33,664 nt of DNA from a virus. Positions 2,849 through 31,506 of the stretch are shown in pieces (position 1 is the stretch's first letter; every line of letters starts with the position of its first letter). The notes below the pieces were generated by a model that saw only the letters and a program-made list of their open reading frames with translations, was not told where the DNA came from and did no database searches. Where the stretch lies: positions 1 through 33,664 of IMG/VR virus record IMGVR_UViG_3300030007_000014. One strand, 5' to 3'. Made by a program: the position numbers and the translations under genes.

Positions 2849-2888
2849 TTTCCCTCCGGGATTAATAAATAGTAATTTCAGAGGGAAA
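2849..2888. repeat. Palindromic intergenic element, copy A
   Basis: Arms TTTCCCTC (2849-2856) and GAGGGAAA (2881-2888) are perfectly complementary and enclose the core ATTAATAAATAGTAAT (2861-2876). It lies just after the stop of the 61-aa gene, in a 289-bp gap. Member of a 12-copy family found throughout the window. Confidence 0.85.
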
Positions 2889-3134
2889 TTCGCTGGCGGC
2901 ATAATTAGTGATTTGTGGGGAAGTGTTCTACCCTCGCCTACGGCTCGTGGGATTTGCGGACACGCCATAGCATCAACCGGGGGTTGAAAACCGCATGGCG
3001 GGGGCGGGATTTCGAGATTTTCGGCATTCCCATAAACAAAACCCCGCCGATACTCCATCACAGCTCCCCCTTTACTTCAGTAACTATTAAGTCTAGTATT
3101 CTCATCAACATAGGCAACTTTGGTGAGAGCTTCC
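2889..3134. other. Gap without a convincing gene
   Basis: About 250 bp between element A and the next gene. It contains a GC-rich inverted repeat, GGCGGGG (near 2998) and CCCCGCC (near 3043), separated by roughly 40 bases. No start site with a good Shine-Dalgarno leads into a sensible reading frame, and no clear promoter is seen. Confidence 0.4.
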
Positions 3135-3548
3135 ATGCCCCGCATTATCCACAAACGTCATCTGATTCGTATACCAGTTCCGGCGGATATTGCTTATGAT
3201 GTCACCTATTACTACAACCCAGAAGGGGACAGGGAGATAAGTCTCAAGCATGTGGAAAGGCTGCTGGTGGGAACCGAAAACCAGAAAGGATTAGCGAAGC
3301 ATTTTCTGTCTTCCATTCAAGGGAAATATGAACTTACCATTAAACAGAGGCTTTGCTTGCTGCAAATGGAATTTCCGAGAGACCTGCGTTTAAAAGCGAT
3401 TCGGGCCTGTATTGAAAAAGCCAATAAGAAATTTGAAGCCAGGTTTCGCGCCGATCCCCACGCTGTTTATTTGGAGGAGGGAACGGCAATCTCTAGAGCG
3501 CTGCGGGATTTGGAATGTGAGAGGAAGATTCTGGCGACTGTGGGGTAG
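3135..3548 (+). CDS. Hypothetical protein (137 aa)
   Basis: A helical, Arg/Lys/Glu-rich protein (MPRIIHKRHLIRIPVPADIA...) with no recognised domain. The central part (around KQRLCLLQMEFPRDLRLKAI) could form a helical bundle. I chose ATG 3135, with GGTGAG about 8 bases upstream, over the in-frame TTG at 3120. It stands alone between two palindromic elements (copy A upstream, copy B directly after its stop), so it may form its own transcription unit. Function unknown. Confidence 0.6.
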   Translation: MPRIIHKRHLIRIPVPADIAYDVTYYYNPEGDREISLKHVERLLVGTENQKGLAKHFLSSIQGKYELTIKQRLCLLQMEFPRDLRLKAIRACIEKANKKFEARFRADPHAVYLEEGTAISRALRDLECERKILATVG

Positions 3549-3549
3549 T

Positions 3550-3588
3550 TTTCCTCCGCGATTAATAAAAAGTAAAGTACGGGGGAAA
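3550..3588. repeat. Palindromic intergenic element, copy B
   Basis: Arms TTTCCTCCG (3550-3558) and CGGGGGAAA (3580-3588) pair along their length with one G-T pair. Core ATTAATAAAAAGTAAA is at 3561-3576. It begins one base after the stop codon of the preceding gene. The arm sequence differs from copy A but still pairs. Confidence 0.85.
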
Positions 3589-3611
3589 CTAAAACCTAGG
3601 GGAAAACCCTA

Positions 3612-3640
3612 TTGACAGGTTGTATTGACGACGTCATAAT
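3612..3640 (+). promoter_or_regulatory. Strong sigma70-type promoter
   Basis: TTGACA (3612-3617), a 17-bp spacer and CATAAT (3635-3640) form a near-consensus sigma70 promoter on the plus strand. A GC-rich hairpin (CGCCC/GGGCG) sits around the expected start site. It faces the ATP-grasp gene across a leader of about 400 bases, so it probably drives the ligase/fibre block or a leader RNA. Seen in sequence only; not tested. Confidence 0.6.
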
Positions 3641-4052
3641 AAGAGCGCCCCCCGGGCGGTCGTTCTGTAGCTAGGGTCGGTTCTCCGGTTTTGCGCTCCA
3701 GCCAAACGGAGGTCAATTTTCTAGTAGTCGATTGCTCTCTCAATTCAGTCTAGTTTTTCGGTTTTCGGCGGGAATTACTAATTAGTAATCCCGGTACGAA
3801 ATCCCGGCGGTACGCCGTGCCCCTCACGTCGCTACTCCATTCCCCCTCAGCCCTTCCCTTCAGTAGCTCCTCCCTTTATAGTAGTTGCTACTTCGCGCGC
3901 GCACGTACTTACTACTGAAGTAAGCAGTGCTCAGCCCACACATTGTAGGGACTCTCGCTCCGCTCGGGATGCTGTAATAGGAAGTGGTCAATTGAATTTC
4001 CGACAGGTTGTCCCCGCGTACCGCGGCGCTTACTTATAATAGGAACTAGGTA
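3641..4052. other. Long untranslated leader region with palindromic element
   Basis: About 410 bp without a convincing gene, between a strong promoter and the ATP-grasp ligase. It holds element copy C, short inverted repeats (CTTAC/GTAAG near 3908-3924; GC-alternating sequence near 3894-3904) and a lone TATAAT at 4035-4040 without a matching -35 box. It may be a structured 5' leader. I see no tRNA fold and no known riboswitch. Confidence 0.4.
3763..3801. repeat. Palindromic intergenic element, copy C (perfect core)
   Basis: The core ATTACTAATTAGTAAT (3774-3789) is a perfect 16-bp palindrome. The outer arms are TTTCG (3763-3767) and CGAAA (3797-3801). Compared with other copies, the usual C/G pair at the inner arm position is replaced by G/C, so pairing is kept although the bases changed. 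It lies in the leader of the ATP-grasp gene. Confidence 0.85.
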
Positions 4053-30358: not shown

Positions 30359-30370
30359 TTCTATCTCCTT

Positions 30371-30790
30371 TTAATTGTTACCGTACAGAAATTGATCCAG
30401 CTCCTTCTCATCCCGGATTTCCACCGTGGCCCAATAAGTCTGCCCTTTACCCGTATTACGTTCGTCTCTAACTTCAATCACATCCGATGCATAGTTGATA
30501 TGTGCGATGTGATTTTTACTTAACACACTAAACATATAGTTCAGCTCCTTTGCCCGCTCATTTGCCGTGATCAATGCGTCACGTGCTTCTTTCGTACGCG
30601 GGCACCGATCAAACACCGTGTTGGCATGTTCACATTGCTTGCACATCATTTTAAGTTCAGACGGCGTGTAGAACCCCCGCATGGATACCCCGAACGAGCC
30701 ATCATCAATCACGAACTCGCAGGGCAGTTCGAATCCGAGTTCCGGGAACATTGCCATCAACTCATCACTAGTGATTACGCCGTTGCTCAT
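30371..30790 (-). CDS. First gene of the early arm, hypothetical (139 aa)
   Basis: Start ATG 30790 (MSNGVITSDELMAMFPELGFELPCEFVIDDGSFGVSMRGFYTPSELKMMCKQCEHANTVFDRC), with GGAGATTGAA upstream. The middle has KQCEHANTVFDRCPRTKEA; with the earlier Cys this could bind metal. The C-terminus is beta and acidic. No family recognised. As the gene nearest the divergent control region it is probably among the earliest expressed, so it may act on the host (inference). Confidence 0.6.
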   Translation of the reverse strand: MSNGVITSDELMAMFPELGFELPCEFVIDDGSFGVSMRGFYTPSELKMMCKQCEHANTVFDRCPRTKEARDALITANERAKELNYMFSVLSKNHIAHINYASDVIEVRDERNTGKGQTYWATVEIRDEKELDQFLYGNN

Positions 30791-31092
30791 TTCAATCTCC
30801 GGTTGGTTGCATACCGCATTTCGGGCGTTGCATGCTGCGGTACTACGGTTAGAAATATAGACCATTTTCCAAGCCTCAACGCGATGATATTTATCTATCA
30901 GGTTCTACGTGGCTGACTATCGGATGTAATCGACTACCATCTCACCTAACTGACTCGCGGGTAAGCCATTTCGTATGTGAACAACTCGCACGACTGACAA
31001 TACATATTAGAGGAATGAGGAGATGAATCAGCCATGGAGCTACGGTACGCGTGACACCTAATCGCTAGCCCCTCCCACTCACTACCGTCATT

Positions 31093-31120
31093 AGCATAGC
31101 ACGCTAGCTCTCATGGTCAG
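31093..31120 (-). promoter_or_regulatory. Possible early promoter (extended -10)
   Basis: On the minus strand CTGACC (31120-31115), 16 bp, TATGCT (31098-31093) with TG one base upstream (extended -10). It points into the early arm, about 300 bases from the first early gene. Confidence 0.35.
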
Positions 31121-31278
31121 CCATCGATGTGAGGCCGTGTGTTAGAGCTATCGCTTTAGATGTATGTGAGTGGTCACTATCGGGCTGCGGGCTGCCAAAT
31201 GTTGATAATTGGTGATTATGTCAAATGGGGAGTGCGCGAGGGGTAGGGAGGGGGAAATTCCGAAGGAGGTGTGAAAAT

Positions 31279-31332
31279 TTGCAAGACACCATCCTATTTT
31301 TTCTGAAATTTTTCAATTCTCTCGATTACTGA
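31279..31332 (+). CDS. Possible micro-ORF with strong Shine-Dalgarno (17 aa)
   Basis: AAGGAGG (31263-31269) lies 9 bases before a TTG that opens MQDTILFFLKFFNSLDY, a short hydrophobic peptide. It could be a leader peptide. TTG start and length make it uncertain. Confidence 0.2.
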   Translation: MQDTILFFLKFFNSLDY

Positions 31333-31461
31333 TAACAATTCCTAGCATCCTACTGTTAGTTTTTTCTCTTAGTAGGGGTTTTTCTCATAATTTATTCCCT
31401 TACCCGCGAGCCAGTTTGCGAGAGGGGGTAGTCGATTGCGGTGCGTGCGAGGCTGTAGGTG

Positions 31462-31506
31462 GGTTTCCTTCCGGGATTACTAATTGTTAATTTATGTAGA
31501 AAATCC
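31462..31506. repeat. Palindromic intergenic element, copy M
   Basis: Core ATTACTAATTGTTAAT (31476-31491) with outer ends GGTTTCC and GAAAATCC that pair imperfectly. It lies about 110 bp upstream of the first small-terminase-like gene, in the control region. Confidence 0.75.

Follow-up and report, generated by a model that had tools for sequence, protein, structure and literature searches.

The 33,664-base virus record IMGVR_UViG_3300030007_000014, referred to here in its full length as the window, carries a dispersed 42-bp palindromic element made of four 6-bp boxes. Related phages carry the same layout at 7 to 14 copies per near-complete genome, or about one copy per 3 to 5 kb. From sequence comparison, we read the array tentatively, with slightly less than even confidence, as a genome-wide set of double-stranded DNA sites for a symmetric phage-encoded protein, which would act as a pan-genomic, stoperator-like operator.

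A preliminary description of this DNA had listed 12 copies, and all 12 exist within a few bases of the places given, scoring 29.6 to 52.0 bits each with a symmetric 42-bp weight matrix that was built from the same 12 copies it scores (Table 1; element coordinates are 42-mer starts). The number of copies had been judged to be beyond chance, and this was confirmed. The core ATTACTAATTAGTAAT (three mismatches or fewer) occurs 10 times in the window versus 0.05 expected in shuffles, and the top score in 30 Markov-shuffled windows was 8.2 bits. The next-best real place, at 21.9 bits, is a 13th copy that lies within the DNA polymerase gene. A very weak element-like place at 21246-21287 scored 4.2 bits with the first matrix and 19.6 bits after iteration and is also found in a near relative, G024.

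Table 1. Element copies and associated genes of the window, with palindrome positions in a comparison phage
Feature	Position	Strand	Remarks
Copy 1	2848..2889		2 bp past stop of 2660-2845
Copy 2	3548..3589		first member of close pair
Copy 3	3761..3802		16-bp core perfect
Copy 4	5621..5662		between 5382-5621 and 5673-6188
Copy 5	10647..10688		weakest of the 12; right arm weak, 29.6 bits
Copy 6	12638..12679		where late and early arms meet
13th element	14815..14856		in DNA polymerase gene, codons 185-198, between uracil-DNA-glycosylase (UDG)-like and exonuclease domains
Copy 7	18664..18705		placed by matrix score
Copy 8	21800..21841		upstream of 21550-21795; place kept in 15/16 genomes
Copy 9	25934..25975		upstream of 25391-25864, then RHH-like gene; place kept in 12/16 genomes
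Copy 10	27755..27796		placed by matrix score
Copy 11	29491..29532		placed by matrix score
Copy 12	31463..31504		before first late gene (TerS-like); kept in 13/13 genomes where that gene was found
Family A DNA polymerase	13006..15408	-	N-terminal UDG-like domain; gene holding the internal element
Dda-like helicase	22311..23630	-	found only with the element among relatives compared
Ribbon-helix-helix (RHH)-like protein	25167..25385	-	72 aa, RP-type basic N-terminal arm; preferred candidate binder, from sequence pattern and weak hidden Markov model (HMM) matches
128-aa protein	26926..27312	-	found only with the element among relatives compared
Dispersed palindrome of OP947158	near 241, 2244, 7681, 15466, 23052, 29963, 37106, 41273, 42970		positions in OP947158

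The repeat had been described as a palindrome of about 40 bp with a 16-bp core. The dyad symmetry stands, but the conserved unit is corrected to 42 bp, in which four 6-bp boxes alternate in orientation, are separated by 6-bp spacers, and recur at a 12-bp pitch. In 91 oriented sites from seven genomes, the sequence outside the 42 bp holds weak information (up to 0.6 bit) in the nearest one or two bases only, and the central spacer is unconstrained in several lineages. Spacers and arms vary between the copies of one genome, and the boxes are kept. Each lineage has its own consensus on the same four-box geometry: cores of G005 and G014 read ATTAATAATTATTAAT, G009 and G010 have ATTAC-N6-GTAAT with GGGCG arms, G012 and G013 have GGATTAC-N6-GTAATCC, G022 has GTTTCACACCCG...CGGGTGTGAAAC, and MW202489 has CCGGCGG- and TTTAC-N6-GTAAA-type arms. 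A copy in G020, read in the polymerase direction, is CTAATCCGGCCGGATTAC CAATTC TTAATCCGGCCGGATTTC, that is, two 18-bp palindromes 6 bp apart. From this copy and the geometry held constant among lineages, we therefore define the element as four alternating 6-bp boxes with 6-bp spacers. Single inner boxes outside the elements show no consistent depletion, being above expectation in three of eight genomes and below it in five (five shuffles each).

Relatives were collected with two phage proteins. A search with the polymerase yielded 33 loci in IMG/VR, and a search with the methyltransferase of MW202489 yielded 10 further loci; we fetched 15 of the polymerase-derived records and 6 of the others, among the latter or former G024, which is near-identical to the window, together with named phages that have related polymerases. 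The element is present in MW202489 and in all 22 fetched records other than those of named phages. Conservation in related phages had been suggested as a check on the element, and it was borne out at 42 of the 43 loci, each of which contains one site or more when scored with the matrix of one lineage or another. Six loci that were blank with the window matrix gave sites with the matrix of another lineage, and L131 (5.4 kb) gave no site with any lineage matrix tried. Counting the window, 23 phage genomes or contigs have 223 listed copies between them. This total takes in near-identical records (G001 and G024 closely match the window where they overlap it), a weak place at 1378 in G024 (23.4 bits), and a pair of identical copies in G018, one close to each end of its contig; three further copies in 25.5 kb of G016 are additional to it. 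Copies number 14 each in G002, G003, G004, and G022, 12 each in G005, G009, and G010, 10 in G018, 8 in MW202489, and 7 in G017. An expectation-maximization search with limited seeds found no dispersed 42-bp element in Microcystis phage PP438425, Vibrio phage MF497422, Caulobacter phage OQ067476, VpV262 (AY095314), or SIO1 (AF189021), and these negatives are weak because the same search at first missed G016 too.

The element also occurs in phages with different virion genes, comprising at least two virion gene sets. Of 13 late families that G002 shares with at least six of nine other near-complete genomes, 12 are missing from G017, G018, and MW202489. Because these three genomes lack those late families and still have elements outside the early arm, the element system goes with the early genes. 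As a separate observation, MW202489 (L122), G017, and G018 couple early modules similar to those of G002-type genomes to different late and virion modules.

The two arms of a copy vary independently of each other. We compared the match of the arms within a copy with the match between copies by permutation, in four segments of 22 genomes (sets of 15 and 7, the former omitting G001 as a near-duplicate), and the arms were never significantly better matched within than between copies. The lowest permutation P values were 0.184 in the set of 15 and 0.108 in the set of 7, the latter from a genome with four sites only. Small nonsignificant within-copy excesses occur, such as 0.71 versus 0.69 for the outer boxes of the window. 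For the inner boxes, within-copy match was equal or lower in 15/15 genomes of the first set and in 5/7 of the second, with G021 and G022 slightly higher. A double-stranded DNA site bound by a symmetric protein fits these arm data. Furthermore, 0 of 70 sites in six related genomes have two A-type inner halves versus 7.7 expected (never so few in 5,000 permutations), a count in which orthologous sites of related genomes are nonindependent; in some lineages, G004 and G005 among them, A is found in both halves. This deficit would be expected if the binding site tolerated one weak half and not two, that is, under selection on total affinity.

The window is organized in two arms. As far as about 12.6 kb, the plus strand carries genes of late type, with matches to tail fibre, lysozyme-like, and tail assembly chaperone proteins; early genes are read on the minus strand, beginning at about 31 kb and ending near 13 kb. 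The preliminary description had placed every copy between genes. By a hand-picked gene list this holds for 12 of 13 copies, with overlaps of open reading frame (ORF) ends by 1 base at 3548, 5621, and 27755 and by 11 bases at 29491; the copy at 14815, in the polymerase gene, departs from it. Greedy, mechanical ORF calls, in which some small ORFs scored as coding may be false, put 10 of the 13 at junctions, with the copies at 2848 and 25934 falling in small ORFs. By the same kind of calls, the core is intergenic in 68 of 91 copies from seven genomes (binomial P = 1.2e-6 to 7.6e-11 per genome).

Spacing between copies is more even than a gene-gap null predicts, with P values for spacing variation of 0 to 0.037 in seven of seven genomes and for the largest gap of 0.001 to 0.02 in five of seven (0.06 and 0.13 in the other two). 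The effect is weaker against a plain uniform null, under which the largest gap gave P < 0.05 in 5 of 10 genomes and P = 0.06 to 0.14 in the other 5. These tests are nonindependent, as related genomes share locations, and the incomplete window contig was treated as circular. Close pairs 213 to 667 bp apart recur among genomes, and pairs like that at 3548 and 3761 adjoin structural genes of about 800 aa in some relatives. Several orthologous locations recur in lineages whose polymerases are about 46 to 57% identical to that of the window; recurrent locations include those before the TerS-like first late gene, before the 21550 family, and before the 25391 family (Table 1). At 76 tandem junction sites, 46 copies lie within -6 to 20 bp past the upstream stop codon, and 25 are equally near the downstream start. 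Stop-codon anchoring was considered and rejected, the counts being suggestive and the sign test nonsignificant where slack exists (26/47). In early arms, the outer-box types are ordered relative to transcription at 15 versus 3 sites (P = 0.0075, related sites being nonindependent), which may mean that one half is used as a ribosome-binding or stop-codon sequence.

The copy inside the polymerase gene separates two domains. In the window, the UDG-like match covers residues 10 to 129 and the exonuclease match begins at about residue 225, and the element lies between them. Homologous codons carry the element in 20 of the 22 element-bearing genomes that cover them (G021 and G022 do not), and the encoded peptide varies with the site, reading LFHRDYSRLIAVDN in the window, IIRPDYNFVIRPNY in G009, and VIRKDYKFVIRMNF in G013. 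For the 18 genomes with enough sites, a matrix was derived from the sites of each genome apart from this copy. Under these matrices, the copy ranked its own genome ahead of every other lineage in 14, but not in the window, in G001 (near-identical to the window), in G002, or in MW202489. Constraint on the protein also contributes here: the element-less PP438425 has LVRPDF at the homologous place. The polymerase itself is a fusion of the UDG-like domain with exonuclease and family A polymerase domains.

Three products of the early arm were considered in relation to the sites. The likeliest binder appears to be the small RHH-like protein, which we prefer on the precedent of relO, where four hexads are known to be occupied by RHH dimers. 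Members of its family are 63 to 118 aa long and, like RHH proteins, have a basic arm (here of the RP type), a strand-like stretch that closes on LP, and a pair of helices. A gene of this family is found in 18 of 24 element-bearing genomes, and the other 6 (G007, G008, G009, G011, G012, and G016) are fragments. A model of the monomer (pLDDT 80.8) has no helix before residue 19, helices at 19-29 and 41-71, and a loop of about 11 residues. The predicted contact residues vary with the site lineage, being RGx with ATTA-core sites (window and G002-G006) and YNA, ASA, or others elsewhere, in a comparison that leaves out G022 and G020. Among 14 genomes, with partial correlations controlled for the exonuclease, distance between the RHH-like proteins tracked distance between sites for both the strand (r = 0.34, P = 0.005) and the rest of the protein (r = 0.385, P = 0.0015), and three other early proteins showed no such tracking (P = 0.11 to 0.44). 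From the arrangement in the window, we infer that the 25391-25864 gene and the RHH-like gene form one operon with a site in front.

The other two products, the 128-aa protein and the Dda-type helicase, stand alone among 65 gene families of G002 in being found in 10/10 near-complete genomes with the element and in 0/4 element-less relatives. The 128-aa protein has no clear structural relative in searches of the PDB, a viral library, and VIA with a model of pLDDT 79.8 (best Foldseek E values, 0.008 in the PDB and 0.0016 in the viral library; best VIA Z, 5.0). Its gene is flanked by a pair of paralogues, 26203-26814 and 28389-29054. Two further candidates for the binder were rejected: the short TerS-like paralogue 31616-31942, of whose family only one copy was found in the element-bearing MW202489, G017, and G018, and the ParB_N-methyltransferase, which is also present in PP438425, MF497422, and OP947158, where the 42-bp element was not found.

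Other genes of the window complete this context. Besides the genes named above, the early arm encodes HNH nucleases, a Sak4-like ATPase, a PD-(D/E)XK exonuclease, and a MazG/nucleoside-type enzyme. The product of 15622-16992 fuses ParB_N to an N6/N4 DNA methyltransferase and occurs in 25 of 28 genomes compared (window included), with or without elements. On the late strand, the product of 4053-5372 resembles phosphoribosylglycinamide synthetase in its domains, which are of the ATP-grasp/GARS type; 11 of the 17 genomes compared have a homologue. The late arm opens with the tandem TerS-like paralogues 31616-31942 and 31939-32505.

As a pan-genomic operator, the array could work as follows. The RHH-like protein would sit on the four boxes as two to four dimers. 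With less confidence, we suggest that occupied junction sites all round the genome would block or pace transcription in the manner of stoperators and that the 128-aa protein and the Dda-type helicase could be partners that are recruited to bound sites or clear them. An operator is favored by the locations at likely operon boundaries, by the orientation in early arms, and by the copy that, in the window, precedes the two genes of which the RHH-like gene is one.

Several results weigh against this reading. A role in lysogeny is doubtful because no repressor/integrase module was recognized among 30 ORFs of the window and the only prokaryote matches were two polymerases at 26% identity. The former result comes from a comparison of the 30 ORFs with PHROGs, in which no integrase or phage RNA polymerase was recognized either, and the latter from a nonexhaustive scan of 84,980 prokaryote genomes with two peptide patterns. 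Assignment to the RHH family is weak, made from the sequence pattern with database matches below cut-offs: the Pfam HicB_lk_antitox model gave E = 0.05 and 14.2 bits versus a cut-off of 27 in 2 of 16 members, NikR-type and YlcI/YnfO models gave E = 0.069 and 0.038 in one member each, and no PDB match was found by Foldseek or profile. The 128-aa protein (partial r = 0.434) and Dda (0.425) track site distance slightly better than the RHH-like protein does. A divergent RHH-like homologue is present in PP438425, where no element was found, and G022 is among the genomes in which the RHH-like gene is not adjacent to the 25391 family. In late arms, the outer-box types have no directional order (11 versus 10 sites). 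A promoter at a fixed distance was rejected, with no conserved flank in the 91 sites.

A possible, less probable explanation is that these are sites for organizing or replicating DNA, with any effect on transcription incidental. A protein bound every 3 to 5 kb would bridge or compact the genome or load the Dda-type helicase, and loading at many places would amount to distributed initiation or restart, with palindromes serving both strands and directions. The Dda of T4 destabilizes transcription complexes and assists T4 forks in passing bound RNA polymerase, and in the experiments reported it did not help Escherichia coli replisomes through blocks (PMC2807033). Spacing that is even beyond the constraint of gene gaps, a polymerase-gene site kept in a long stretch without gaps, the restriction of the 128-aa protein and Dda to element-bearing genomes, the independence of elements from late gene content in G017, G018, and MW202489, and the lack of a conserved promoter all speak for such a function. 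Yet placement is conserved at likely operon boundaries (before the TerS-like gene and the 25391 family), the recurrent close pairs are unneeded for even coverage, and some 40-kb genomes have only 7 to 10 copies and G016 only 3. Evenness relative to plain uniform placement is significant in only half of the genomes, and the early-arm asymmetry also speaks against it. Dda-like helicases were matched in 211 phage records, so Dda may not be specific to the element.

Less probable again, and in our view unlikely, is that the sites belong to a regulator or nucleoid protein of the host, to the benefit or the detriment of the phage. The consensus is particular to each phage lineage on a fixed geometry, site distance tracks the phage's early proteins, and one copy forms part of the polymerase gene of the phage itself, all of which argue against a host protein.

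The preliminary description had left open whether the element is a binding site or an RNA hairpin. The dyad geometry, lineage-specific conservation, even spacing, and polymerase copy uphold the first alternative. The second, hairpins for termination or processing, is already disfavored and is very improbable. Individual copies can be written as stem-loops and many lie shortly past stop codons, but that preference is nonsignificant where slack exists and elements occur on both arms. Above all, the hairpin reading fails because the arms are not better matched within than between copies in 22 genomes. Moreover, the window has no match in Rfam, and the six intergenic elements of 15000-33664 coincide with none of the 22 terminator-like sites predicted in that span. 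This last result and the absence of a conserved T-tract in the flanks of the 91 sites agree with the earlier statement that the element is not an ordinary terminator. Most improbable of all are MITE-like miniature mobile elements spread through intergenic DNA, which would be dispersed, palindromic, and mostly intergenic as these copies are, but which accord poorly with boxes kept while spacers and arms differ within a genome, with locations orthologous across lineages, and with a polymerase copy that mostly follows the local consensus.

In a broader proposal for a diverse group of phages, which we regard as unlikely when taken as a whole, evenly spaced four-box sites for the phage's own RHH-like protein, with a dedicated small protein and a Dda-type helicase, would form a phage "chromosome scaffold" that organizes, replicates, or times the genome. 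In the same joint proposal, a maximum spacing would be held strongly enough to enter the linker between polymerase domains and shape its amino acids, and the site code would be reset in each lineage with the geometry kept. If genome organization or distributed replication were the function, the intracellular organization of small phage genomes would be directly testable.

We found no description of this element in the open-access literature searched, and its closest parallels are arrays and operators of different build. Desulfofustis phage LS06-2018-MD01 (OP947158, L126), whose polymerase has 26.5% identity, carries about nine widely spaced copies of a dispersed palindrome, TTGCTATGTCCCAAATTGGGACATAGCAA, that differs from the 42-bp element in sequence and geometry; HMM searches found no RHH-like, 128-aa, or Dda homologue in that phage. 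The operator relO has four 6-bp repeats recognized by dimers of the RHH antitoxin RelB on one helix face (PMC2812701), and the element resembles it in having four hexads, known here from sequence. As described in that source, relO is a single autoregulatory operator with half-sites that lack spacing, whereas the element has 6-bp spacers and forms a genome-wide array. SPBRE of the Bacillus prophage SPbeta is a repeated intergenic element that was long known from sequence only and was later shown to be bound by the phage protein MrpR (PMC10516654). According to that report, SPBRE is a 15-bp motif derived from nine ChAP-seq peaks and MrpR is a repressor with a tyrosine-recombinase fold, acting in a prophage, in contrast to the four-boxed element described here; no binder with such a fold was recognized among the ORFs scanned, many ORFs having no match.

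The stoperators of Cluster A mycobacteriophages (L5, Bxb1, and Trixie) are dispersed, mostly lie off promoters, and have a motif that varies by phage group and tracks the repressor; those of the L5 type are asymmetric and oriented with transcription (PMC6550527). The element is like them in its many dispersed sites per phage genome, here mostly at gene junctions, and it may work like a stoperator. Stoperators are 13-bp sites of temperate phages with a known repressor, and the sites here are 42-bp palindromes whose outer boxes are ordered in early arms and unordered in late arms. We do not class the element as a stoperator because that class consists of asymmetric, transcription-oriented sites. 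Its fixed geometry and recoded sequence in each lineage provide a natural experiment in which a DNA-binding protein coevolves with about a dozen sites simultaneously, and the small size of the candidate proteins makes them convenient to study. Dispersed site arrays have been known in temperate phages as a means of silencing the prophage; here, such an array is tied to early and replication genes and occurs in phages without a recognized lysogeny module and with at least two virion gene sets.

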